NCBI RefSeq assembly: GCF_022701195.1 | Contig: NZ_CP078089.1 | Span: 2,666,001-2,730,000, forward strand | Direction of reading: 5' to 3' | Source: Allobaculum mucilyticum | GTDB taxonomy: Bacteria; Bacillota_I; Bacilli_A; Erysipelotrichales; Erysipelotrichaceae | DNA length: 64,000 bases | Position numbers and translations under genes: made by a program | Shown: positions 11,171 through 56,502 of the stretch, piece by piece | How the letters are laid out: each line of letters starts with the position of its first letter | Position numbering within the stretch: position 1 is the first letter of the stretch | Notes under the pieces: generated by a model | The model's database searches: none | What the model saw: only the letters and a program-made list of their open reading frames with translations | Told to the model about the DNA's origin: nothing

Positions 11171-11202
11171 AACCCGCCGTTCACGCAGAATGGCGGGTTT
11201 TC
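11171..11202 (+). terminator. Terminator of the TIR gene
   Basis: An 8-bp stem AACCCGCC/GGCGGGTT (11171-11178 with 11192-11199) is followed by TTTTC. The adjacent ISL3 element duplicated 8 bp that overlap the 3' arm and T tract. Confidence 0.85.
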
Positions 11203-11204
11203 AG
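11197..11204 (+). repeat. Left copy of 8-bp target duplication GTTTTCAG
   Basis: It is identical to 13698-13705 and immediately outside the ISL3 end at 11205. Eight-base duplications are characteristic of ISL3-family transposition. Confidence 0.85.
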
Positions 11205-11303
11205 GGCACTCTAAATTTTGTTGAGGTTTTGATACCTACGAGCTTTTCAAAAGCTTGAGGTTTCAAAACCTCAGTTTTGTTTAAAGGGGAACCTGGACTG
11301 TCA

Positions 11304-12755
11304 TTACGTTCCCTTGTCTTCTTTCTCGAACGGCTCCAATCTAAAGGCAGGCCGATTCAATACGTACAGGACGCGATTTCTGAACCGCTTCCAGTTCGTG
11401 TATCCATTCGCGTTGTTCTTGATCTGTTTCACGAGTTTGTTTCGATTTTCGATCATAGAAGAAGTTAGCCGGTGATCCTTCCTTCGAGCTTTTCCGTTCT
11501 TCTTGTCAACGACGTACTCCGTCTTGACGATCTCGAAAGAATTAACGATCTCCCTGAACCAGTTGACTACAGTCTGTCCGAATGCGTTAAGTTCCTTAAC
11601 CTGGGACCGGTTAAGATCTGCGAGAATGACCTGCAGCCGATCGGCGGCATCCACCTTTGTTCCATTTCTAAAGAACTCGCTCAGGGTATTTCGCATTTCA
11701 TAGGCTTCCGTAAGATCATCGCTGATACTCAGCAGAAGCTCACGGAGCTCATACTCGTTTAACCACGTCTTGAAGTGGGCATTGTAGGTGCGTTCACCGT
11801 TCGGATCAAATACGTCTACCCAAATATCTTTCTTCTTCTTCGAATATGGATCTGGATTTTTAATCCTCTTTTTTGCATTGGGCTTAATTCCGAGAAGGTG
11901 ATTCTGGTGTTTCAGAAGGTAATATTCATCGGACCCTTTCAGGGTGCCTTTCATCGTCCGGATGCGGACCTCAGTCAGTCGCCTGTTGAATTCCTGCATC
12001 ACATGGAACCTGTCACAGGCATAGATCGCGTCTGGAAAGAACTTTTTACAGACAACCCTGTAAGTCTCGTACATATCCGCTGCAATAAACCGAACTTTTT
12101 GTCTCTCTTCCAGCGGGAAACTGCTGAAGAAGTCGATAAGATCCTGCTTTTTCCGGCTGGGAAGCAGATCAACAGCGGTCTGCGTGTCGTAGTCCAGAAG
12201 CATGCATACATAGACTGAGGTTCCCGACTTAAAGGAATAAGTCTCGTCAAGCTGCAGCACGCGGGGAAGCGTTGTCGCTTTGGGAATCTGGACATGATCG
12301 TCGAAGATGTGCTGAACAGTCGTAGGCGAGAGATTATAGCGCTTGGCAGCTGATGTAAATGTTACGGCTGGGTCTCTCATTTCCTCGAGGACGCATACGA
12401 CAGTAGAGACCGAGATCCTCTGCTTCTTGAAAACGAAGGGATTAAATTCATACCAGGTACGATTACATACCGGACATTTATAGCGGCGGGCATGATAGTT
12501 AATCTGACAGCGGCAGTTATGAAGAATTGAATGAGTTATTGTTTTGTCCACGTAGTTACAGACATTCGGATGCTCATGTCCGCATCTTGGACAGGGTGGA
12601 TAATCCGGTTTTAAAGTGACGTTGATAATGACTAAATCACCCAGATTGGTAGACGAAAGACTCTCGACGGCGTTCTGATCTAGTCCATAGAGCTCAAGAA
12701 CGGAATTTTCGAGAGAAGTTATCGCTACATTACGGGTTTCTGCCTTCTTGCGCAT
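11304..12755 (-). CDS. ISL3-family DDE transposase
   Basis: 483 residues, intact. The N-terminal zinc-finger region has CPRCGHEH (about 55-62) and CPVCNRTW (about 95-102), followed by a helix-turn-helix-like stretch. The catalytic core includes LQLDETYSFK with the first Asp, FIAADMYETYR, and ACDRFHVMQEFNRR, which is typical of ISL3 transposases. The C-terminus contains SSMIENRNKLVKQIKNNANGY. The start follows AAGGAGG seven bases upstream. It is transcribed with the DUF6431-like gene 51 bases upstream. Confidence 0.92.
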   Translation of the reverse strand: MRKKAETRNVAITSLENSVLELYGLDQNAVESLSSTNLGDLVIINVTLKPDYPPCPRCGHEHPNVCNYVDKTITHSILHNCRCQINYHARRYKCPVCNRTWYEFNPFVFKKQRISVSTVVCVLEEMRDPAVTFTSAAKRYNLSPTTVQHIFDDHVQIPKATTLPRVLQLDETYSFKSGTSVYVCMLLDYDTQTAVDLLPSRKKQDLIDFFSSFPLEERQKVRFIAADMYETYRVVCKKFFPDAIYACDRFHVMQEFNRRLTEVRIRTMKGTLKGSDEYYLLKHQNHLLGIKPNAKKRIKNPDPYSKKKKDIWVDVFDPNGERTYNAHFKTWLNEYELRELLLSISDDLTEAYEMRNTLSEFFRNGTKVDAADRLQVILADLNRSQVKELNAFGQTVVNWFREIVNSFEIVKTEYVVDKKNGKARRKDHRLTSSMIENRNKLVKQIKNNANGYTNWKRFRNRVLYVLNRPAFRLEPFEKEDKGT

Positions 12756-12806
12756 AGTCCTTCCTCCTTAGTGATGGCAGATTCTCATAGGAGGAGAAAT
12801 GACGCG

Positions 12807-13358
12807 TCACGTTATAGGTTGAAAAATCGAAAAATGCAGAAATCCAGGAGAAATCATCAGGTAAGGACCGATTTTTACTGCGGAACATGTGAATAGATCG
12901 TTGAAAGTGCGCAGTCGTTTAAGAACGGCAGAAAAGCGCTTCTTCATCTGGTTTAGAAAGCGGTAGGCCGTCGATGCATCAACCAGTCCGTTGGACTGCT
13001 TGGAAACTGGCTTTCCACTGTTGTGAAGCTGAATGATTTCAGCAGCGGTGTCGCTGCAGATCTGGAAGCTGGGAATGACGAAAAGCGGCAGAACACGATG
13101 GGTTCTGCCGCAATGTGGGCAATGGACTCGGTGGATAGTGAGGCTTACTACGGTTTGTGCCGATTGGATCTTAACACTTCGGTTGCATGTGTCATGGCGG
13201 TACAGTCGATGTCCGCAATCAGGGCAGACAGGATGACCAGCCATAAAATGATCGTAGTCCTGGTTGTATTCAGACTGAAGGTGATGTTGGATAGCAGTCG
13301 GATCCGAATCTGTATTCTTAAGGAGATCGTTGTTAAGGGGCTGTCCGATTGTTATCAT
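12807..13358 (-). CDS. DUF6431-like accessory protein of the ISL3 element
   Basis: 183 residues. A zinc-finger-like block has CPDCGHRLYRHD (about 45-56) and CPHCGRTHRVLP (about 80-91), followed by hydrophobic and basic helices. I recognise the CxxC pattern with RHD and THRVLP as that of the DUF6431 family, which is often found next to ISL3-type transposases. It lies first in the two-gene unit, with AAAGG before its ATG. DNA binding is inferred from the zinc-finger-like motifs; its role in transposition is unknown. Confidence 0.75.
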   Translation of the reverse strand: MITIGQPLNNDLLKNTDSDPTAIQHHLQSEYNQDYDHFMAGHPVCPDCGHRLYRHDTCNRSVKIQSAQTVVSLTIHRVHCPHCGRTHRVLPLFVIPSFQICSDTAAEIIQLHNSGKPVSKQSNGLVDASTAYRFLNQMKKRFSAVLKRLRTFNDLFTCSAVKIGPYLMISPGFLHFSIFQPIT

Positions 13359-13377
13359 ATAGATGCCTTTCTGGGCA

Positions 13378-13427
13378 GGACGAAACCTTTTGAGTGGCCA
13401 ACTTCGAATGGGGTTTCGTCCTTTTTT
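13378..13427 (+). terminator. Insulating hairpin upstream of the IS genes
   Basis: A 10-bp stem GGACGAAACC/GGTTTCGTCC is followed by TTTTTT on the plus strand, opposite to the IS genes. It is conserved in the second copy at 46.47 kb. It would stop plus-strand transcripts running antisense out of the IS genes; it lies between the IS genes and the right end. Confidence 0.55.
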
Positions 13428-13518
13428 TACGCTTTGTTACTCCTAACTGTATTTCGTGCGGAAAGCTCTTTCAATACCCATAAGTCTCAGAGAGGCGAAA
13501 ACCTCAAGAAAATGGATA

Positions 13519-13600
13519 GGGGGAGGAGGTGTCAGTTTCCAGGGGGCATGGTCCGAGCTATGTCTAATGCCCCCCTTCAGCTGACACCTCCTCCCCCCCC
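13519..13600. repeat. G-rich palindrome inside the ISL3 element
   Basis: Arms 13519-13549 and 13567-13600 share GGGGGAGGAGGTGTCAG and, after six unlike bases, GGGGGCAT. The loop is 17 bases. The breakpoints of the rearranged copies at 46341 and 55855 fall in these arms. Confidence 0.75.
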
Positions 13601-13697
13601 AGCCTCACGAAGCTTTAAAGGTCGCCTTAGTCTCTTGAGGTTCGCACCTCAGAAGACTTTATAGACTAGTGTACACCTCAAGAAATTTTAGATTGTC

Positions 13698-13705
13698 GTT
13701 TTCAG
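13698..13705 (+). repeat. Right copy of target duplication GTTTTCAG
   Basis: Matches 11197-11204 exactly, directly after the right IS end (GATTGTC). Confidence 0.85.
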
Positions 13706-44631: not shown

Positions 44632-45372
44632 ATGATGAGTACAGACACCTCGGTCTGGAAAGAGACCCTCAGTCAGCTCCAGTCTGATGTTCAGGATAAC
44701 CAGGATCTGATTCAGCAGATCCGCACGCAGATTGCCCTTGAGACTGAACGCAATAAAAAAGAAGTGCAGAAACTGTCCGCACAGGCTGCCAAACAGCAGG
44801 AAGAACTTGAAGAACTGCTCAGACAAGTTGAAGGCGATGACCTCTTCTATCTGCCAAGCGATAAAGAAGCCAAGGATGCGTTTACTCAGGGACTCAAGGA
44901 GAGACTTGAAGCATCCAGACAGGTTGTCGTATTCGCACAGAACCTGCTTGAGACACCGACTGCCTCCAAAGAAGTTCTCGACAAGATCCGCTCTGGTTCG
45001 ACAAGAGAAGCAAAAGTCAGCGCATCTGATTTTGATGTTGCAGCTCTTTCCGGAAACTGGATTCACTATTTCCAGAAAGACATGTTCACATGCCAGAGCT
45101 TCTGGGATGACGGCGATTTCAAAGAATATGATTTCCGCGGAAACAAGCTTGTTGAAGACCGCGAAGGAAAATACGAAATCAAAGACGGACAGGTTGTTCT
45201 CCATTTCTCCAATGGCGAAGAAGCCCGCTACACCGTTACTGGCTTCTCGCCTGACTGCCTCGACTATCTGATCGTCGATACTCCAATCCGTTTCGACTAC
45301 ATTCCTGCTGAGCTGCTCAATTCCATGCTCGAAAACCAGGAACCTGCTTCTGCCGAAACAGCACAGTCTTAG
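44632..45372 (+). CDS. Coiled-coil plus lipocalin-like beta protein, unknown function
   Basis: 246 residues, starting ATG-ATG after AAAGGA. Residues 5-70 are a Gln/Glu/Lys-rich coiled coil, 75-130 a helical linker, and 140-225 a beta-rich domain (LSGNWIHYFQKDMF to FSPDCLDYLIV) that resembles small lipocalin-like folds. There is no signal peptide. Its terminator is split by the large insertion island downstream: the left arm is at 45409-45418 and the right arm at 55989-55998. Confidence 0.75.
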   Translation: MMSTDTSVWKETLSQLQSDVQDNQDLIQQIRTQIALETERNKKEVQKLSAQAAKQQEELEELLRQVEGDDLFYLPSDKEAKDAFTQGLKERLEASRQVVVFAQNLLETPTASKEVLDKIRSGSTREAKVSASDFDVAALSGNWIHYFQKDMFTCQSFWDDGDFKEYDFRGNKLVEDREGKYEIKDGQVVLHFSNGEEARYTVTGFSPDCLDYLIVDTPIRFDYIPAELLNSMLENQEPASAETAQS

Positions 45373-45408: not shown

Positions 45409-45418
45409 AGCCCGGCTT
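45409..45418 (+). terminator. Left arm of a terminator split by insertion
   Basis: AGCCCGGCTT pairs perfectly with AAGCCGGGCT at 55989-55998, which is followed by TTCTGTTTTTG. If the island and one target copy are removed the hairpin closes on a six-base loop. Confidence 0.85.
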
Positions 45419-45419
45419 A

Positions 45420-45427
45420 CTGAAAAG
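45420..45427 (+). repeat. Left copy of 8-bp target duplication CTGAAAAG
   Basis: Identical to 55984-55991 and directly outside the ISL3 left-type end at 45428. Confidence 0.85.
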
Positions 45428-46340
45428 GGCGCTCTAAATTTTGTTGAGGTTTTGATACCTACGAGCTTTTCAAAAGCTTGAGGTTTCAAAACCTCATTTT
45501 TGTTTAAAGGGGAACCTGACTGTCATTACGTTCCCTTGTCTTCTTCTCGAACGGCTCCAATCTAAAGGCTGGCCGATTCAATACGTACAGGACGCGATTT
45601 CTGAATCGCTTCCAGTTCGTGTATCCATTCGCGTTGTTCTTGATCTGTTTCACGAGTTTGTTTCGATTTTCGATCATAGAAGAAGTCAGCCGGTGATCCT
45701 TCCTTCGAGCTTTTCCGTTCTTCTTGTCAACGACGTACTCCGTCTTGACGATCTCGAAAGAATTAACGATCTCCCTGAACCAGTTGACTACAGTCTGTCC
45801 GAATGCGTTAAGTTCCTTAACCTGGGACCGGTTAAGATCTGCGAGAATGACCTGCAGCCGATCGGCGGCATTCGCCTTTGTTCCATTTCTAAAGAACTCG
45901 CTCAGGGTATTTCGCATTTCATAGGCTTTCGTAAGATCATCGCTGATACTCAGCAGAAGCTCACGGAGCTCATACTCGTTTAACCACGTCTTGAAGTGGG
46001 CATTGTAGGTGCGTTCACCGTTCGATCAAATACGTCTACCCAAATATCTTTCTTCTTCTTCGAATATGGATCTGGATTTTTAATCCTCTTTTTGCATTGG
46101 GCTTAATTCCGAGAAGGTGATTCTGGTGTTTCAGAAGGTAATATTCATCGGACCCTTTCAGGGTGCCTTTCATCGTCCGGATGCGGACCTCAGTCAGTCG
46201 CCTGTTGAATTCCTGCATCACATGGAACCTGTCACAGGCATAGATCGTGTCTGAAAGAACTTTTACAGACAACCCTGTAAGTCTCGTACATATCCGCTGC
46301 AATAAACCGAACTTTTTGTCTCTCTTCCAGCGGGAAACTG
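45428..46340 (-). mobile_element. Left fragment of ISL3 copy B
   Basis: It corresponds to copy A 11205 to about 12122 with few changes. It breaks off inside the transposase at GGGAAACTG and is joined there to the palindrome arm of copy C. Confidence 0.85.
45504..46340 (-). pseudogene. C-terminal fragment of ISL3 transposase (copy B)
   Basis: It retains the C-terminal part, including MRNTLSEFFRNGTKA and SSMIENRNKLVKQIK. It lacks the N-terminal zinc fingers and most of the catalytic core, and has several one-base deletions relative to copy A (for example near 46024 and 46095). Confidence 0.85.
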
Positions 46341-46527
46341 CGCCCCTGGAAGCTGACACCTCCTCCCCTATCCATTTTCTTGAGGTTTTCGCCTCTCTGA
46401 GACTTATGGGTATTGAAAGAGCTTTCCGCACGAAATACAGTTAGGAGTAACAAAGCGTAAAAAAGGACGAAACCCCATTCGAAGTTGGCCACTCAAAAGG
46501 TTTCGTCCTGCCCAGAAAGGCATCTAT

Positions 46528-47078
46528 ATGATAACAATCGGACAGCCCCTTAACAACGATCTCCTTAAGAATACAGATTCGATCCGACTGCTATCCAACA
46601 TCACCTTCAGTCTGAATACAACCAGGACTACGATCATTTTATGGCTGGTCATCCTGTTGCCCTGATTGCGGACATCGACTGTACCGCCATGACACATGCA
46701 ACCGAAGTGTTAAGACCCAATCGGCACAAACCGTAGTAAGCCTCACTATCCACCGAGTCCATTGCCCACATTGCGGCAGAACCCATCGTGTTCTGCCGCT
46801 TTTCGTCATTCCCAGCTTCCAGATCTGCAGCGACACCGCTGCTGAAATCATTTCAGCTTCACAACAGTGGAAAGCCAGTTTCCAAGCAGTCCAACGGACT
46901 GGTTGATGCATCGACGGCCTACCGCTTTCTAAACCAGATGAAGAAGCGCTTTTCTGCCGTTCTTAAACGACTGCGCACTTTCAACGATCTATTCACATGT
47001 TCTGCAGTAAAAATCGGTCCTTACCTGATGATTTCTCCTGGATTTCTGCATTTTTCGATTTTCCAACCTATAACGTGA
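46528..47078 (+). pseudogene. Frameshifted DUF6431-like gene (copy C)
   Basis: Same start (MITIGQPLNNDLLKN) and same end (HFSIFQPIT) as the intact gene at 12807-13358, but several single-base deletions break the frame (for example the loss of one G in GATTCGGATCC near 46576). Confidence 0.85.
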
Positions 47079-47129
47079 CGCGTCATTTCTCCTCTTATGA
47101 GAATCTGCCCTCACTAAGGAGGAAGGACT

Positions 47130-48576
47130 ATGCGCAAGAAGGCAGAAACCCGTAATGTACCGATAACTTCTCTCGAAAATTCCGTTCTTGAGCTCTATGG
47201 ACTAGATCAGAACGCCGTCGAGAGTCTTTCGTCTACCAATCTGGGTGATTTAGTCATTATCAACGTCACTTTAAAACCGGATTATCCACCCTGTCCAAGA
47301 TGCGGACATGAGCATCCGAATGTCTGTAACTACGTGGACGAAACAATAACTCATTCAATTCTTCATAACTGCCGCTGTCAGATTAACTATCATGCCCGCC
47401 GCTATAAATGTCCGGTATGTAATCGTACCTGGTATGAATTTAATCCCTTCGTTTTCAAGAAGCAGAGGATCTCGGTCTCTACTGTCGTATGCGTCCTCGA
47501 GGAAATGAGAGACCCAGCCGTAACATTTACATCAGTTGCCAAGCGCTATAATCTCTCTCGCCTGCGACTGTTCAGCACATCTTCGACGATCATGTCCAGA
47601 TCCCCAAAGCGACGACGCTTCCCGCGTGCTGCAGCTTGACGAGACTTATTCCTTTAAGTCGGGAACCTCAGTCTATGTATGCATGCTTCTGACTACGACA
47701 CGCAGACCGCTGTTGATCTGCTTCCCAGCCGGAAAAAGCAGGATCTTATCGACTTCTTCAGCAGTTTCCCGCTGGAAGAGAGACAAAAGTTCGGTTTATT
47801 GCAGCGGATATGTACGAGACTTACAGGGTTGTCTGTAAAATGTTCTTTCCAGACGCGATCTATGCCTGTGACAGGTTCCATGTGATGCAGGAATTCAACA
47901 GGCGACTGACCGAGGTCCGCATCCGACGATGAAAGGCACCCTGAAAGGGTCCGATGAATATTACCTTCGAAACACCAGAATCACCTTCTCGGAATTAAGC
48001 CCAATGCAAAAAAGAGGATTAAAAATCCAGATCCATATTCGAAGAAGAAAGATATTTGGGTAAACGTATTTGATCCGAACGGCGAACGCACCTGCAATGC
48101 CCACTTCAAGACGTGGTTAAACGAGTATGAGCTCCGTGAGCTTCTGCTGAGTATCAGCGATGATCTTACGGAAGCCTATGAAATGCGAAATACCCTGAGC
48201 GAGTTCTTTAGAAATGGAACAAAGGCGGATGCCGCCGATCGGCTGCAGGTCATTCTCGCAGATCTTAACCGGTCCCAGGTTAAGGAACTTAACGCATTCG
48301 GACAGACTGTAGTCAACTGGTTCAGGGAGATCGTTAATTCTTTCGAGATCGTCAAGACGGAGTACGTCGTTGACAAGAAGAACGGAAAAGCTCGAAGGAA
48401 GGATCACCGGCTGACTTCTTCTATGATCGAAAATCGAAACAAACTCGTGAAACAGATCAAGAACAACGCGAATGGATACACGAACTGGAAGCGATTCAGA
48501 AATCGCGTCCTGTACGTATTGAATCGGCCAGCCTTTTAGATTGGAGCCGTTCGAGAAAGAAGACAAGGGAACGTAA
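47130..48576 (+). pseudogene. Frameshifted ISL3 transposase (copy C)
   Basis: The first 150 codons match copy A almost exactly, including both zinc-finger pairs. One-base losses follow near 47565, 47690, 47785, 47930 and 47970. The C-terminal 118 codons (48183-48539) are again readable, but a stop replaces R-L-E near 48537. It cannot make a full protein as shown. Confidence 0.85.
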
Positions 48577-48770
48577 TGACAGTCCAGGTTCCCTTTAAAT
48601 AAAAATGAGGTTTTGAAACCTCAAGCTTTTGAAAAGCTCGTAGGTATCAAAACCTCAACAAAATTTAGAGCGCCCATTTTTCAAAGAATATCTGAAATAA
48701 ATGGAGGTTAATATACCGTAGAAATATTGAGTACTTACAAATAGAACTTTCCCAATCAGCTAAACTATAC

Positions 48771-49218
48771 GGTCGGATTTTTGCGTGGACGACCACGTTT
48801 CCTTTTGGGCTGGTCTACTGATCTGGTCGTGGAATCAGATCCAGTTTTTGAAGAATTTCTATCTGACCAGGATTCATCTTGATCAGTTCCCACTCATTAT
48901 CATTTTTTATTCTTTGCCTCTTTGCAGGATATGCATGATTTTCTTATAGCTCATGTCCTCAAGGAGGCCTTTTTCGTCGAACAGGTTCAAAAGTCTGAAC
49001 GTGATGACGGTCGACAGAAAATCAATGAATTCGCTGCCGATCACTGAGTAGTCATCATGGACTCTGGTTACATCAAAGCCGAGGGCGTTCTTGTAGTACC
49101 GCATAACGATCTCGATTTGCCAGCGATAACTATAGGTCTTCCAGGCATCTTCCGGAGACAGATCGAAATCTGATTCAAAGACCACTGTTCTAAATGTACG
49201 CTTTTTCTGAGGCAATTG
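48771..49218 (-). pseudogene. C-terminal part of the interrupted DDE transposase
   Basis: It contains YSYRWQIEIVMRYYKNALGFD, with the Glu-containing C-terminal motif of IS4-superfamily enzymes, then a frameshift near 48905. An AT-hook-like end (KRKRGRPRKNPTV) is readable in the next frame. Confidence 0.75.
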
Positions 49219-49239
49219 CGCTTCGGGTGGGTAAGTCCT

Positions 49240-49445
49240 TTATTACAGAATGCTGGTGGAAGATCCTTCCTTCCGTCGCCTCGCTCGCGGTTTGGGAGTT
49301 CACAGGTTCCGGATGGCCACAAGGGTTTAAGCGTCAGCGGCCCTTGTGGACAGACGGGTTCTGTGAAATCATCCAATCCGAGCGGGGCAGGAAGGAAGGA
49401 TCCCCTTCACTTCTAGAGCTGAGCGAGCGCCCAGCCGGCGAGGCG
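49240..49445. repeat. Cluster of nested inverted repeats
   Basis: About 200 bases with GATCCTTCCTTCC against GGAAGGAAGGATC, GTCGCCTCG against CGAGGCGAC, and a GGCCACAAGGG/CCCTTGTGG hairpin (about 49314-49351). It carries no gene and lies at the 3' edge of the nested ISL3-type transposase. Confidence 0.55.
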
Positions 49446-49448
49446 ACC

Positions 49449-50752
49449 TTATTCAAAATCTGTGTCAGCTGTATAAGCTGGTCTCAGATTTCTTCCCACG
49501 TTTGAACAGACAAGCATGATCATTCCGATCAGACTATCCACATCCTGAAAGCCATACGAACGACGAATGATCAGCTTAATCTTGTTGTTCAGAGCTTCGA
49601 TCCGCGCATTCGACAAGCCGTATTTCATCGTACTCAGAATTGACTGCGTGTGGCGCCGGATCTTCCTGCTCAGCTCGACAAACTCCGAATTCTGCAGCGG
49701 CTCGCCCAGGAAAGCCATTTTTTCAGTGCTTCTTCTACACCTTCATTCGAGCGGAAGATCGCACGAAGGGACTCCTTGATCTGATATCCGCGAAACAGTT
49801 TAGGAAAGACCTTCTGATGTGATTCAAACTCTCCCGCTGGTATTCCGTCAGATTTTCAGGATTCTTTCCAAGTGGATATTTCGATCTCTTCAGTGTCACT
49901 GATTCTTTTTCCTTGGTTCGGTTCCTTTCTTTGGACGTCCGACTTTCCGTTTAGGTAAAGACTTATCCTGCTCATAGGCTTCGCCAGATCCTTCTGCGCA
50001 TCCGATCGAGAGCATCAATCGCCCATGTAACCACATGATAGGGATCGATACAGAACTCTGCTTGAGGAGAATTCTCGTTTACCGTGTTTTTGATCCATCG
50101 AGCGCCGTCACCACTGACCATCCGGATCTGGGAGGCACAATCTTCACCGATTCGTTCATAGAACTTTTCGAAGGTGTTTTTACCAAAGCCATCGTGTGCC
50201 CAGACGACCTCGCCAGTCTGCTGGTTCACCACTGTTGTGATGTAGGTGTGACCCTTGCGATAGCTGGTTTCATCCACGCCGATCACTTCAAGGTTTTCGA
50301 ACTTCTTGTCCGGATCTATTTCTTTGACCTTCTGACTCTGGCAATGATGGTTCCAACAGTCCTCCAGTTGATCCGCATCAGCTGACAAACCAGCTTTTTG
50401 ACTGGTGAATGGCCTGAAAAGCAACCTGCTGCTCGAACTTTTGGTGAACTTAGAACCGTGAAATGCCCATGGAACGGCTTCTGTAACAACACCGTGTTCA
50501 GCGCATTTGATTCTTTTAACATCGGCCACGATGAACACTTTGTGGGTACCCATATCGAGGGCACGCCATCTGCGGGCTCTCGTTTTGGCGTCATATCCCG
50601 GCATGTGTTGTCCGCAGTGCGGGCAGATTCCGCTTTCCTTTTATGGAGCTTAACGTGGACAAGAACGCTGTCTTTCTGATTGTTCTCCTCAACTTTTACG
50701 ATGGATACCCTTTGAGCTTTTGAGTGTTTTTGATAAGCTGATTGTGGGTCAT
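49449..50752 (-). pseudogene. Second type of ISL3-family transposase, frameshifted
   Basis: The start MTHNQLIKNTQKLKG at 50752 and CPHCGQHM are typical of ISL3 N-termini. The core has WRALDMGTHKVFI and GVDETSYRKGHTYITTVV, and the C-terminus has LSNARIEALNNKIKLIIRRSYG. Frameshifts occur near 50715, 50640, 49975 and 49735. It differs clearly from copies A to C. It was inserted into the DDE transposase; the exact ends were not resolved, though GGTGGGTAA/TTACCCACC occur near 49228 and 50878. Confidence 0.8.
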
Positions 50753-50824
50753 GTGAAAAATTATCCTTTCTGTGTGGGAACTAAAAGGATAACACATGTC
50801 CTTTTACTTATCTAGACTATATCT

Positions 50825-50866
50825 AAAGCAGTTTCCATCAAACGATCAGAGGGAAACTGCTTTTTT
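50825..50866 (+). terminator. Terminator-like hairpin at the nested IS edge
   Basis: AAGCAGTTTCC/GGAAACTGCTT followed by TTTT; it would block plus-strand transcription into the surrounding IS. Confidence 0.6.
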
Positions 50867-50869
50867 AAC

Positions 50870-51987
50870 AACAACGGTTACCCACCGTTAGTGCAATAGA
50901 GCCCTTTTTCTTTTCGTATTCTTCGAAATCGTACTTATCTTTACGATGCTTATCCAGCCAGTCCGTCTCCTCCTGAGCCGCTCTTCTCGGATCACGGAAA
51001 CTGTAGAGCCATTTTTCCTTATTAGACAGCTTCTCTTTCTTAAACTGAATCGGTTCCATCTGCCCAAGAAAGCCGCAGCAGCCTTCGATCACGCCCTCGA
51101 AGTTATACATCTCATGATCGAAGGCAAGCTTGGCATCCGATGAAGCGGGTTGAAGTAATGAAGCTGCGGGCAGTCTTTAAGGACTTCTTCGATCGATTTG
51201 ACGGGAAACCCTTTATCACCAACCATAATTCCGCTTTGAATACCGTTCTGTTTCACAAAACTGTCATAGGATGTCAGATCGAGCATATTGCCGGGAAAGC
51301 ACTGCGAACAGATGGGCTCCATTTTTTTCCAGATCAAATGCATAAAGTACGGAAATATCCCGTCTTCCTTTCAGTCTGGCCTTTCTGGAAAACTCCGAGA
51401 GCGTGTTTTGTCTGGAGTCGTTCGACTTCAGTGTTCCATCGATCAGAAGATGATCATCAATCCCAACTTTGGCTGCCCGGTTTTTCATGAACTTCAGAAT
51501 TCGGCTGCATGTTTTACCAAGATCTTTTGAAATGTACTGATCGTATTCTTGCTCATCGCGGTTTCTGGCATCAGCTCCGTCAGAAACGACTCATCGTAAC
51601 TCTTTTGAGTTCGCAGTCTTTGATATGCGGATAGCAGACGCGAAGAATGGCCATGCACAGAATCTTATCGGCGTCCTGACGGTTATAGACCTGAAGCAGT
51701 TCTTCCATCAATTCAGCGGACTGCCTGTAACAGAGCTCAACATTGGCCCAGTCCTTAAGAACTGTCTTAGATGTATGAACCGCTGGAGAAGTCGGTTCTT
51801 CAAGAGGTACGAATTTGCCATTAATGATGTGGCCGATAGTAGGACCATCGACTGGATAACAATGGCCATTCTTGCGAACACAGCCGACTCGCTGTTTGAC
51901 AGCGTATCGATCTTTGTTTTTCCATAAGCGTAAACAATCGTATTTTTTGGGACGGGCGACGGCCCGGATATCAGCTGGGACGGACAT
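50870..51987 (-). pseudogene. N-terminal part of the interrupted DDE transposase
   Basis: It starts MSVPADIRAVARPKK after AAGGAG. DDHLLIDGTLKSND supplies the first Asp motif and MVGDKGFPVKSIEEVL the second. Frameshifts occur near 51580, 51490, 51300 and 51110. The frame is lost in the nested element after EKKKGS; the rest of the protein is at 48771-49218. Confidence 0.8.
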
Positions 51988-52246
51988 TTTCGGCTCCTTT
52001 TTTATATAGTGTATTTATATCATTATTATACCATTAATTGATCTATACAGGGAGGATTTTTATATTCAAAATGAAATTTCTCAAAATCGAATTGATTTAT
52101 AATTTTGCTTAATAAAGCTCGTTAATCGTAGTTATGGTCATTGAGCCAGGGGAAAATTAAAAGAGAGCCTCGGGAAAAGGCTCTCTGATGGGATGAAATT
52201 TCAAAACGAGCGATTTGTATAGTTAAGCTCATTGGGAAAGTTCTAT

Positions 52247-52470
52247 ACAAACAGAAAACGGAATCCTGATGAAGATCAGGCGTTTTCTGCTGCCGGAGAA
52301 CGAAACAAGACCGACCTGGTCCTGACATGGAAAGTCAGAGATCAGATCCGGTCTATTTATATGAGTGAGAGACGCAGACTGATCCATGGATCAGTCTAGA
52401 CCTGTGGCAGACACATGGGTAGATGGGGAGCGTTTGATGCTTACCTTTCAGCGATATGAGATTTTTGATA
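52247..52470. other. Hairpin-rich spacer
   Basis: No gene. CAGAAAACG/CGTTTTCTG with an inner CCTGAT/ATCAGG forms a long hairpin (52252-52289). A perfect 22-base palindrome centred on CCATGG lies at 52377-52398. Confidence 0.5.
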
Positions 52471-53058
52471 CTATTCACCTTGTGGAATTGTAGGATCAAA
52501 AGTTGTGATTCGATCAGCTGAAGTCGCATAGAATGCAATTCCTTCCGCTTTCCACCCCAGTTTTACCAAACTGTCATATTCCTTTTATCTGTGGTGAAAT
52601 GGTGACTTCCAGCTTTCGCATTCGGGTTATAGCAACGATATACAGGAATGTCTTTTTCGCTCTCGGAATAGAGTGCTGTTCCATCCAGTTTCCATCCAGC
52701 TTTCACCAGATAATCAACTTCTCTTCATCTATCGTATAATGATGATCTCCTGCATTTGGATTATACAGGCGACGAATAGGCAGTCTCTGATCTTCGCGAT
52801 TGTTCCAACTGATGCGCTCAGGAGTCCAACCCAGGCGAGCTAGTTCTTTACGCTCCGCACGATCCGTTGTAAACAGATGCTCACCGGTATTTGGATTATA
52901 CAAGCGGAAAACCGAGATAATATTGCTTACTGTGACGGTGAATGCTTCTACTGTATCTGTTGAAACAAAGGCATAACCAGGATATTTTTCTTTCAGAGCA
53001 TCCATTGTCTCTTTCGAATACTCCCATTCATATGCAACCGGTACAACACCTTCTTTTT
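52471..53058 (-). pseudogene. Truncated, frameshifted gene for a DUF5648-type repeat protein
   Basis: Three repeats of the pattern RLYNPNxGEHxxTTD...LxxLGW are seen (FRLYNPNTGEHLFTTD, RRLYNPNAGDHHYTID, YRCYNPNAKAGSHHFTTD), each followed by a GW-containing strand. This is the DUF5648 beta-trefoil-like repeat of secreted or phage-associated proteins. Two frameshifts (near 52715 and 52590) break it. The N-terminus is lost next to the IS4-type element at 53072, so its original export signal and partner domains are unknown. Confidence 0.65.
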
Positions 53059-53209
53059 AGCTATCCAGTTACAATGTCATTAAGTTAAGATTTCTCAGAC
53101 CACATCAGCGTTAAGCAGTGATGTGGTCTTTTTCTACTCTTCAAGTCAAATCTCGAATGATTCGAGTTTTTCACTTTTTCTAAAAATCTATTGACAAATT
53201 TCTGCCGCG

Positions 53210-53226
53210 CGGCTGCTTCGCAGCCG
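53210..53226. repeat. GC-rich hairpin before the transposase start
   Basis: CGGCTGC TTC GCAGCCG. A comparable GGCCGC GTA GCGGCC hairpin (56707-56721) holds the same place in the second IS4-type element. Probably shields the transposase from outside transcription. Confidence 0.6.
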
Positions 53227-53254
53227 ATGGGGAGAACTTAAAGGAGTTTTCCCT

Positions 53255-54561
53255 ATGACTGCTATCGCCAAAGAATGTTCTTTCTTCAGAAACACCTTCC
53301 TCAATATCATCAGCTCAGAAACGGCGAACCCTGCCAATTTTACTTCTCAGTCCGCCTTCACCCGTAAGCGGCAGATTGACCTGCATGAGCTTGTCCTTCT
53401 TCCGTTTCAGCTGACAGAGGAATCCTCGCTGCTTCCTTTCCTGGATCCTGTTTAAGGGCGGATCATCTGTTTCAGCCTCTGCTGTGTCTCAGGCCCGTTC
53501 CAAAATCAACTCTTCACTTTATAAAAACGTCTTCAATCGGTTTAACAAGGCAACTTCCAGCTCTGATGTTAAAACCTTCAAGGGTTATCGCCTCCTCGCT
53601 GTAGATGGAAGCGAGATTCAAGTTCTTCCTGAACAGGACAATGACATCACCTATGGCGCTTCTAAAAAGGCAAGAAGAGGCACTTTGTTCATTTGAATGC
53701 CGAATTCGACGCCCTCAACTCCGTCTTTACTGACGCGCTGCTTCAACCCGGCTCTGAGAAGAATGAAGATTCAGCTCTTCTTGAACTCGCTCAGCGTTCT
53801 TCATTTCAGAAAGCCATCTTCATCGCTGATCGGGGATACGAAGCTCTTATGTCTTTCTATCGCCTGCAGAAGGAACATGTCCCTTTGTCATACGTATCAA
53901 AGACGAGACATCATCTACAAGCATTCTCAAGTACTATAAGACTCCCGAGTCAGAAGAGTATGACATTCCTTTCAATGTGATTCTGACCAGTAAAAACAAC
54001 AGGCATGTCAAAGACCATTGGGATGTCTATAAGTACATCTCTTCGTACAGGAAGCAGCCTGAATTTGACGGTCAAACGACTGAACTCCCTTTAAATATCA
54101 GGGTTGTGAGGTTCAAAGCTGCCTGCGAAGGGAATGAATCATTCATTACCGTCTGCACCAATCTGTCGGAAGCTGAGTTTGGGACCGAGGACATCAAGCA
54201 GATCTACCGTCTGCGCTGGCAGGTTGAAGTCGGCTTCAGGGGACTGAAACGAAACACCGATCTTGAATGGACTCATTCAAGGAAGCTTGATCTGGTCCAG
54301 GCAGAGATCTATGCCAAAATGACTCTCTACAATCTTTGTTCCCGTTTGCGCAACAAGGTAGAAAGATCTCGTCAGCACCAGAAGCGCATCGCTCAGGCCA
54401 AAAAGCACAAGCAGAAGGCAGATTTCGGATTCATCATCAAAACGATTCAACAGTGGCTGTTCAAAAAAGCCAGAATCAGCTTGAGTACACTGGAAGATCT
54501 TCTTCTGGCCAGGATATCTCCGATCAGAGAAGGAAGAGCTGATACCAGAAAGAAGAAGTGA
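53255..54561 (+). pseudogene. IS4-family transposase, frameshifted
   Basis: Motifs LLAVDGSEI, FIADRGYEA and IYRLRWQVEVGFRGLKR give the DDE triad in order. Frameshifts near 53450, 53690 and 53900 split it into four pieces; otherwise the full length (about 430 codons) is present. Clearly related to the transposase at 56750. Confidence 0.85.
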
Positions 54562-54758
54562 CAGATTTGAAAACCGAAAAGTCATCAGGATGATTTTTTC
54601 AACAGGTAGAAAATCATCCTTTCGTCATGCCTGAGACGCAAAATATAAGAAATGACAACGCTCATGAACAGGGTATACGATTTTTATCCCTCCTAACTTA
54701 ATGACATTGACGGGACATGTAAACCAAACATTATATTGTTGCTATTAGGGCTCATTTC

Positions 54759-54784
54759 CAAGGAGGATCAGTGTCCAACCTCCT
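54759..54784 (+). promoter_or_regulatory. AAGGAGG/CCTCCTT hairpin upstream of the methyltransferase remnant
   Basis: A ribosome-binding-like AAGGAGG is paired with CCTCCTT twelve bases later, and a further hairpin (GCGGCTA/TAGCCGC, 54800-54836) follows. It may be the end of an upstream leader or terminator; the linked gene is lost. Confidence 0.3.
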
Positions 54785-54896
54785 TACCAACACGATGGGG
54801 CGGCTAAAGGTTCTGGGATTAAGAACTTATAGCCGCTACTTCCTTTATAATGGGTACTGAGCTACAAATCATATTCTGAAGGAGGAAATGCTGCTG

Positions 54897-55871
54897 ATGG
54901 AAGGAATCATTGAGTTTCGAAAATACCCTCTCGAAATAATCCTTGAAAAGCTGTTGATCGATAAGACAACAGGCAAGCGGATCATATGAGCTACGGATGG
55001 TTACAGTGAGTACGGAGACAAGTACTGTGATCGTTTTGAAATCACTCCTGGTGCCCTGGCTGGAATTAATCCTGTCCTCATTCAGCCAAGAGCATTTAAA
55101 GCACTCGAAACTCAGCAGCAGCGAACCAAATCCAAAGCAGAAGTCTTCACCCCGTCCTGGATTGTCAACAAAATGGTTAACCACCTCGATGAAGAATGGT
55201 TCGGAAGTCCTGACGTATTCAATATTGAAAAAGATCAAACCTGGGAGACAAAAACCGAAATGATCGATTTCAAAGGTAAGAAGTGGAAAGACTACGTTGA
55301 CCGATCAGTTCTTGAAATCACCTGTGGCGAAGCACCATTCATTGTATCCCGATACAACTCTTCAACCGGACAGATCATTCCTGTTGAAGAACGAATCGGG
55401 ATTCTTGATCGAAAGCTGCGGGTTGTTACGGAGAACACAGACAATGAAGAAGACTGGATCAAGTGGGCGAAGCGTGCCTATGAAAGTGTGTACGGCTATG
55501 AGTACCAGGGCGACAATTTACTCATTGGCCGCATCAACTTGCTCATGACCTTTGTTGACTACTACCAGAGCGTTTGGAACAAAGAAGCCGATAAAGATCT
55601 TCTTACTACCATCACAAACATCATCACATGGAATTTCTGGCAGATGGACGGCTTGAATGGAACTGTCCCATTGGGTGTTCCGCAGCCAGTCTTTGAGCAG
55701 ATGACCCTTTTCGATATTGAAGACAAACCAGAAGAAAAAGCTCCACTTTGTAAAGTCAGAAAGTGGAGAGCAAGAAAAACGATTCGATACAAAGAGATTG
55801 AAACGAAAGAAGGAATAGATATTGCCAAAAAAAAGTGGGACATCGTGCTGGGAAATGCCCCCTTCAGCTGA
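54897..55871 (+). pseudogene. Truncated N6-adenine DNA methyltransferase of a restriction-modification system
   Basis: The frame starts after GGAGG and reads MEGIIEFRKYPLEIILEKLL. It contains TKSKAEVFTPSWIVNKM, LEITCGEAPFIVSRY and GDNLLIGRINLLMTF, text I associate with the restriction-subunit-M family; FTP and LEITCGEAP are the cofactor-site region. An in-frame TGA at 54987-54989 replaces what is probably Trp. The protein is cut exactly at the catalytic motif (DIVLGNAPF instead of NPPF/Y) where the ISL3 palindrome arm begins at 55855. It is inactive. Confidence 0.75.
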
Positions 55872-55983
55872 CACCTCCTCCCCCCCAGCCTCACGAAGCT
55901 TTAAAGGTCGCCTTAGTCTTTTGAGGTTCACACCTTAGAAAACTTTATAGGCTAGTGTCCACCTCAAGAAATTTTAGATTATC
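55855..55983 (-). mobile_element. Right-end fragment of ISL3 copy B
   Basis: It matches copy A from its right palindrome arm (about 13567) to its right end at 13697, with a few changes. Flanked outside by CTGAAAAG, it pairs with the left end at 45428. Confidence 0.85.
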
Positions 55984-55991
55984 CTGAAAAG
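55984..55991 (+). repeat. Right copy of target duplication CTGAAAAG
   Basis: Matches 45420-45427 exactly; the last three bases also begin the right arm of the split terminator. Confidence 0.85.
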
Positions 55992-56130
55992 CCGGGCTTT
56001 CTGTTTTTGCGTTTTCTGTTTCTTTGAGTGAAAGAATGCAAAGATTGCGATATTTATTCTTTCGGGCATGCCGCCAGGCGACTCTTAGTTTCGCTCCTAC
56101 AATAGAGGGTGTTTATAGGAGGCATCTATC

Positions 56131-56388
56131 ATGGCCGACGAATTCAAAAATTTGAAGACAAAGTTCTCAGCGACGAAGTCCGTCACGACGAAAAGAAAAT
56201 TGAAGCAAAACGCGAAGAAATGAACGTTCATGCAATGGAAGAGGAAAATGACAAATCCAAGTTCATGAAAGACCTTCGCGAAAAGAAATTAAGCACGATG
56301 AGAAAGTCATCGAGCGCAAAGAGCAGGAAGCTGCAAAACACGAAGAAAAATCAAAGCCAACGAACAGGTGATCCATACCGGCAAGTAA
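56131..56388 (+). pseudogene. Small charged helical protein, frameshifted
   Basis: It starts MADEFKNL after AGGAGG. Joining frames gives EDKVLSDEVRHDEKKIEAK, FMKDLREKEIKHDEKVIE and a C-terminus IKANEQVIHTGK, about 85 residues of Lys/Glu-rich helix. One-base losses near 56150, 56287 and 56351 break it as shown. Either a dead gene or a gene with sequence errors. Family unknown. Confidence 0.6.
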
Positions 56389-56502
56389 GCTTTACGACAA
56401 TCTTTCTGACATGATCTGATCATGGACAGCGCTGCAGCCACACAGAAATCAGATCGATGTCCGTTCCTGAATGAATGAATCCAGGAAGTATATGAAGAAA
56501 AG

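Follow-up and report, generated by a model that had tools for sequence, protein, structure and literature searches.

The closest described systems to the locus reported here belong to two families of insertion sequences (IS), IS1182 and ISL3, the latter including ISSau8. The locus lies in a 64,000-nucleotide stretch of Allobaculum mucilyticum DNA (the window; contig NZ_CP078089.1, positions 2,666,001 to 2,730,000 of the forward strand), in which an island with ISL3 outer ends separates the two arms of the intrinsic terminator of a host gene, gene 44632. IS1272/TnSha1, an element of the IS1182 family, inserts in hairpins, many of which are transcription terminators, by a blunt insertion with partial deletion of the target and no duplication (PMC4923244). 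The ISL3 family is present in at least 30 phyla, and the terminator analysis of that survey, in the sections available, deals with motifs inside the IS (PMC9208149). Its target preference was stated in 2017 to be unknown, AT-rich regions being suggested (PMC5395568). In Enterococcus faecium, vanHAX DNA bordered on one side by an ISL3 element was inserted approximately midway in a ribosomal RNA (rRNA)-operon terminator, in two revertants at the same place and with the 8-bp duplication ACTAGAAA (PMC11702846). Finally, Staphylococcus aureus subsp. anaerobius harbours 87 ISSau8-like copies, all but one intergenic, which carry terminators, one of them bidirectional in the 5′ region (PMC8171923).

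The element of the window shares with the ISL3 family its transposase, its 8-bp duplications and its imperfect terminal repeats starting with GG, and differs by a preference for terminators, where the family preference is given as not known (PMC5395568). Insertion in hairpins and terminators is common to the window element and IS1272/TnSha1, but the transposase families differ and the window element makes an 8-bp duplication, whereas IS1272/TnSha1 makes none (PMC4923244). The E. faecium insertion is alike in its 8-bp duplication, in the ISL3 element at one end and in the terminator split about halfway; it differs in being a single site in two selected revertants, for which the proposed origin is a rearrangement mediated by an IS, its mechanism uncharacterised, and no rule for ISL3 is drawn in the available part of the paper (PMC11702846). 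We count this case, as far as it is described there, as an independent report in favour of the reading proposed below. As for the ISSau8-like copies, they resemble the window element in their intergenic placement and in the terminators that they carry, while the family is unstated and terminator targeting unmentioned in the text at hand (PMC8171923). A terminator preference for ISL3 is stated in no paper found, with IS1272 as the precedent, most subscription papers and ISfinder/TnPedia being outside the search. On the evidence given below we consider it probable that an ISL3-family element which prefers intrinsic terminators inserted in the loop and the upper stem of the gene-44632 terminator.

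The interrupted site consists of the following features.

44632-45372, + strand: host gene of 246 aa, whose terminator is interrupted (from the list of open reading frames (ORFs); Pfam matches weak only)
45409-45418, + strand: left arm of the interrupted terminator, AGCCCGGCTT
45420-45427: left copy of the target duplication CTGAAAAG
55984-55991: right copy of the target duplication CTGAAAAG
55989-55998, + strand: right arm of the interrupted terminator, AAGCCGGGCT, then TTCTGTTTTTG

The initial annotation of this DNA had described perfectly complementary 10-bp arms at 45409 and 55989 and a copy of CTGAAAAG at each of the two outer ISL3 ends, and both observations were borne out at these coordinates. 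Comparison with an intact sibling element (11205-13697) shows that the outer ISL3 termini are genuine, 45428 being on the transposase 3′ side and 55983 on the 5′ side. By arithmetic only, the chance of an exact 8-bp repeat touching both termini is about 4^-8. The annotation had further claimed that excision of the island restores a terminator, and the joined flanks do form a 10-bp stem with a 6-nt loop and a T-rich tail (terminator score of 20). The 51-nt joined site folds at -20 kcal/mol (z -4.3) with none of 200 shuffles equally stable, while the stability of the two present junctions is no better than that of their own shuffles (z 0.59 and 0.15). The arms occurring together elsewhere had been named as an observation that would speak against the claim; no exact match with 3-12 nt spacing was found genome-wide. 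Moreover, the duplication shares 3 nt with the right arm, a point absent from the annotation, which means that the insertion reaches across the loop into the upper part of the stem. These results support the entry of a single transposition unit, bounded by ISL3 ends, into the terminator loop, leaving an 8-bp duplication. This part of the history that had been proposed stands, while its dating is weaker than claimed, as the interior of the island is scrambled and does not form a simple nest.

The intact sibling provides the reference for the element.

11205-13697, - strand: intact sibling ISL3 (2493 bp), inserted in the T-tail of a different terminator
11197-11204, second copy 13698-13705: target duplication of the sibling, GTTTTCAG (genome site 2677205)
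11304-12755, - strand: ISL3 transposase of 483 aa (PF01610, 1.7e-39; NF033550, 212.6 bits for a cut-off of 180)
12807-13358, - strand: accessory ORF, DUF6431 zinc ribbon (PF20020, 8.1e-14)

Membership in ISL3 is indicated by a transposase above the curated cut-offs of PF01610 and NF033550, by an 8-bp duplication at 16 of the 29 sites in its own genome and at 24 further sites in relatives, and by imperfect terminal inverted repeats starting with GG, the ends reading GGCACTCTAAATTTTG.. and ..GATTGTC, as found in the relatives too. For the transposase-3′ end, 28 near-full matches out of 67 were lined up, and for the other end 25 out of 39 were taken, shorter fragments and self-matches being excluded in both cases. 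In two copies, at 525298 (L028) and 1738500 (L010), the first 16-18 bp of the transposase-3′ end are repeated between the target duplication and the element. A terminator inserter of the IS1182/IS1272 type was also considered and is ruled out by the ISL3 transposase together with the 8-bp duplications. A scan of contigs with the transposase found two relatives, an uncultured Allobaculum and an Erysipelotrichaceae bacterium. A search of plasmids gave no match at 1e-30; at 1e-5 it gave 2,180 records, all below 60% identity, with Enterococcus as the largest group (831).

In order to place these insertions against the background of their own genome (G000), 360 kb were sampled from it as control DNA, in which intergenic positions were set by a simple ORF-based definition. 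Terminator footprints make up 2.07% of the control positions and touch 10.0% of intergenic 8-mers. Among the 16 ISL3 sites retaining the duplication, 11 fall in a terminator footprint (12 of 29 when every ISL3 site is taken), compared with 2.86 expected from intergenic DNA matched on A/T run and A+T content (P = 4e-6). A coincidental terminator at the site of the island would agree with the share of intergenic 8-mers that touch a footprint, but the same pattern recurs in the 11 sites, that of the island included, and in relatives, and we regard chance as extremely improbable. The fold energy of the empty sites (78 nt), a test free of any terminator definition, differs as well from that of matched intergenic DNA (Kolmogorov-Smirnov (KS) P = 6e-4; 3e-4 when matched on the motif). 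A single terminator was taken twice by the same ISL3, at 1735963 (L005) and 1738500 (L010), once in the hairpin and once in the T-tail, the two elements lying nearly end to end.

The 16 duplications, each turned to its T-rich strand, have a T-rich core in common, where 13-15 of the 16 show T at each of positions 2-5, as a pure preference for a T-tract (C-TTTT-Y) would also give, terminators then being hit merely through their tails. However, intergenic controls matched on the leave-one-out motif predict 3.24 sites where 11 of 16 are observed (P = 1.5e-5), and insertions within hairpins are not tail insertions, so that we find this explanation quite unlikely. A most relaxed terminator detector flagged 26% of G000 intergenic 8-mers with a loss of power, and for this reason a quality cut was adopted.

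The preference was then examined in relatives, where 24 sites were available, 18 from a search requiring the duplication (62 locus identifiers) and six from the comparison of copies, the other loci being without identifiable ends. One genome, G071, contains at least two types of ISL3 with transposases 42-43% identical to that of the window, and 5 of its 11 sites are in terminators compared with 1.16 expected (P = 0.003; energy P = 0.004); a seventh copy of one of these types (L123/L215), for which no right end was found, was excluded. Eight further genomes provide 13 sites of elements with transposases 34-43% identical. All 13 rank in the top third of matched DNA by stability (energy P = 2e-7), for a control pooled from four genomes and not taken from the own genome of each site, and the relaxed detector strengthens this group (11 of 12 compared with 4.15, P = 5.5e-5; L152 excluded). 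When the own genome and the nine others are pooled, 20 of 40 sites are in terminators compared with 6.0 expected (P = 1e-7), and 7 of the 40 are wholly within a hairpin compared with 1.4 expected (P = 3e-4). ISL3 insertions in terminators are in excess of those at matched sites.

The element carries a hairpin of its own at the end that faces the host gene.

45445-45496, + strand: hairpin just inside the ISL3 end facing gene 44632, then TTTTTGTTT; inward and terminator-like (-33 kcal/mol for the 78-nt fold starting there)

In seven of nine element types, the 180 nt next to the transposase-3′ end include a strict inward terminator, for which the density of the 360-kb control predicts about 0.04 on each strand over this length, and none of the nine has a strict outward terminator at this end. 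For the type of the window, the left-hand ISL3 piece of the island (piece A, 45428-46341) passes the strict score; the intact copy, with a different tail, does not. With the relaxed detector, for which the two best hairpins per end were considered, inward hairpins are found at the transposase-3′ end in eight of nine types. Given this terminator-like hairpin, transcription of gene 44632 probably still stops within ~ 100 nt.

Several observations weigh against the proposed preference. Indeed, no terminator was scored at 5 of the 16 duplication-bearing sites of the own genome, nor at 17 of its 29 sites taken together, the controls use the simple ORF-based definition of intergenic DNA, and the preference itself is drawn from genome comparison. 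The footprint count of the eight further genomes taken separately is non-significant (4 of 13 compared with 1.78, P = 0.085). The relaxed detector weakens the own-genome result to 12 of 16 compared with 6.3 (P = 0.003) and reduces that of G071 to 6 of 11 compared with 3.4 (P = 0.09), and with it the counts inside hairpins are non-significant in every group (P from 0.11 to 0.26). Among the two best hairpins per end that it gives, five of nine types have an outward one near the transposase-3′ end, and in one element (L083) a strict outward terminator is located at the opposite end.

Furthermore, an IS4 element of the same genome, of which at least 40 nearly identical copies are present including the one at 53072-54709 of the window, served as a control. 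Twenty-nine copies were examined, and 21 were used after removal of seven without duplication and one with an altered left end. IS4 too is enriched near terminators, with 8 of 21 sites compared with 2.58 expected (P = 0.002), 7 of 21 by the other score, and 9 of 21 compared with 5.54 with the relaxed detector (P = 0.075), and the footprint difference between ISL3 and IS4 is marginal (P = 0.035). Since IS4 shares the enrichment, part of the ISL3 signal may be an effect of T-tracts or of survival. According to a survival bias, ISL3 would enter many T-rich places and only the copies in harmless DNA after genes would persist, and the enrichment of IS4 beside terminators is what this predicts. The ISL3 enrichment nevertheless persists after matching for intergenic position and target motif. 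Moreover, the IS4 sites display no shift in fold energy relative to matched DNA (P = 0.92) and none of the 21 is wholly inside a hairpin, compared with the 7 of 40 ISL3 sites, and the fold energies of the two elements differ (P = 0.0013). The hairpin part of the signal was seen for ISL3 only and not for IS4, and survival bias as the whole explanation seems unlikely to us. At 5 of the 21 IS4 sites the element lies 20-22 nt beyond the end of a terminator hairpin, just past the T-tract.

Under the preferred reading of an element drawn to intrinsic terminators, the transposase, possibly with a DUF6431 partner, would favour the combination of a T-tract of the type C-TTTT-Y and hairpin-forming DNA close to it, and the hairpin could be sensed through an extruded cruciform, bent DNA or a paused RNA polymerase. 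This would be active targeting instead of survival. The inward terminator-like hairpin of the element would then replace the broken one, and the element would be shielded from host transcripts. As for the accessory gene, a second ORF is found in seven of eight element types of the relatives and all seven match DUF6431, the match of L135 being just under the Pfam gathering score. Single-ORF elements of another genome, G293, have two sites inside terminator hairpins with the relaxed detector, and one of these is retained under the strict score; hence DUF6431 is probably dispensable for the terminator preference. A more specific proposal would be a two-gene ISL3 subgroup (transposase and DUF6431) dedicated to terminators, which recognises the hairpin and T-tract, splits the terminator and substitutes its own inward one, with DUF6431 as a target-recognition or regulatory subunit and with insertions nearly silent for the host; we hold it to be rather doubtful.

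A pull to terminators, if true, would explain the build-up of ISL3 without much harm and would fit the ISL3-associated insertion in the enterococcal rRNA terminator. It would also be a case, open to test, in which a DDE transposase reads the shape of DNA or the points where transcription ends. Such insertions can alter read-through between genes.

The interior of the island contains the following features, from left to right.

45428-46341, - strand: ISL3 piece A of 914 bp, transposase 3′ end, outer terminus intact (98% identity to 11203-12124)
46343-48675, + strand: ISL3 copy B, in opposite orientation, without the 5′ 152 bp (98% identity to 13545-11204)
48741-52246, - strand: IS1634-like element, interrupted, with 30-bp inverted ends (93%; inverted repeat I10)
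49449-50604, - strand: second, different ISL3-type transposase, in pieces, within the IS1634-like element (PF01610 at 49972-50604 and 49449-49718)
52703-53005, - strand: DUF5648 fragment (PF18885, 1.4e-21)
53072-54709, + strand: IS4-family element with intact ends and differing flanks, no target duplication
54710-55853, + strand: DNA-methylase-like gene piece (95.6% identity to L221, at 321883-323009)
55854-55983, - strand: ISL3 5′ end piece of 130 bp, outer terminus intact (93% identity to 13566-13697)

The region 48907-49215 scores 37 bits with the IS1634 model, under the cut-off of 100. For 55173-55871 there was no match to Pfam or NCBIfam, and we presume the piece at 54710-55853 to be methylase-like from an NPPF motif in the partner copy L221. 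The match to L221 starts exactly at the IS4 end, and the junction of the methylase-like fragment with the right ISL3 piece is one of microhomology. Together with the IS4 element that has no duplication, this junction argues for recombination and not for nested insertion alone; the unit would have been scrambled after its entry by further insertions and recombination, in an order of inner events that is conjectural.

With regard to a composite transposon, the outer duplication is present and both flanking ISL3 copies are incomplete. Two ISL3 copies in the same orientation could have carried cargo into the terminator as one unit, an inner inversion then breaking both, which is compatible with the insertion of a terminator-preferring element. 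Copy B, which lacks reference positions 13546-13697, and the right piece, which covers 13566-13697, add up to one nearly complete ISL3. The 5′ region of ISL3 contains an imperfect inverted repeat, GGGGAGGAGGTGTCAG / CTGACACCTCCTCCCC (window 13519-13600), and the breaks of both pieces fall within it. On the other hand, the remainder of copy A (reference 12125-13697), which this history predicts beside the right piece, is missing and the methylase-like fragment is in its place. We see such a composite unit as plausible, if somewhat short of an even chance. The later filling of a single ISL3 and a two-copy cargo unit followed by inversion both fit the island.

The empty site was searched for at the DNA level in 40 genomes, of which the own genome and one congener matched, and at the protein level in five genomes of the genus including the own one, of which three matched. 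The gene-44632 homologue of the congener G001 is directly followed by a small gene (window ~ 56130) and then by a substrate-binding gene (window 58575), and the gene order is the same in the congener G002; as the flanking genes are side by side there, the island is absent from both. The gap holds a different terminator in G001 and none was scored in that of G002, the terminator having diverged there from the empty site with a single CTGAAAAG that had been predicted. A search of two further congeners, whose genomes are 66% and 67% complete, did not find the gene.

The small gene to the right of the island (56131-56420) is out of frame at an A-run, where the G001 homologue also has fewer A than the in-frame homologue of G002. 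The frame breaks at A-runs and some of the broken ORFs of the island may be sequencing errors in single-contig assemblies, the own genome being a single 3.14-Mb contig with an estimated completeness of 92.5%. The duplications and hairpins are independent of such possible errors.

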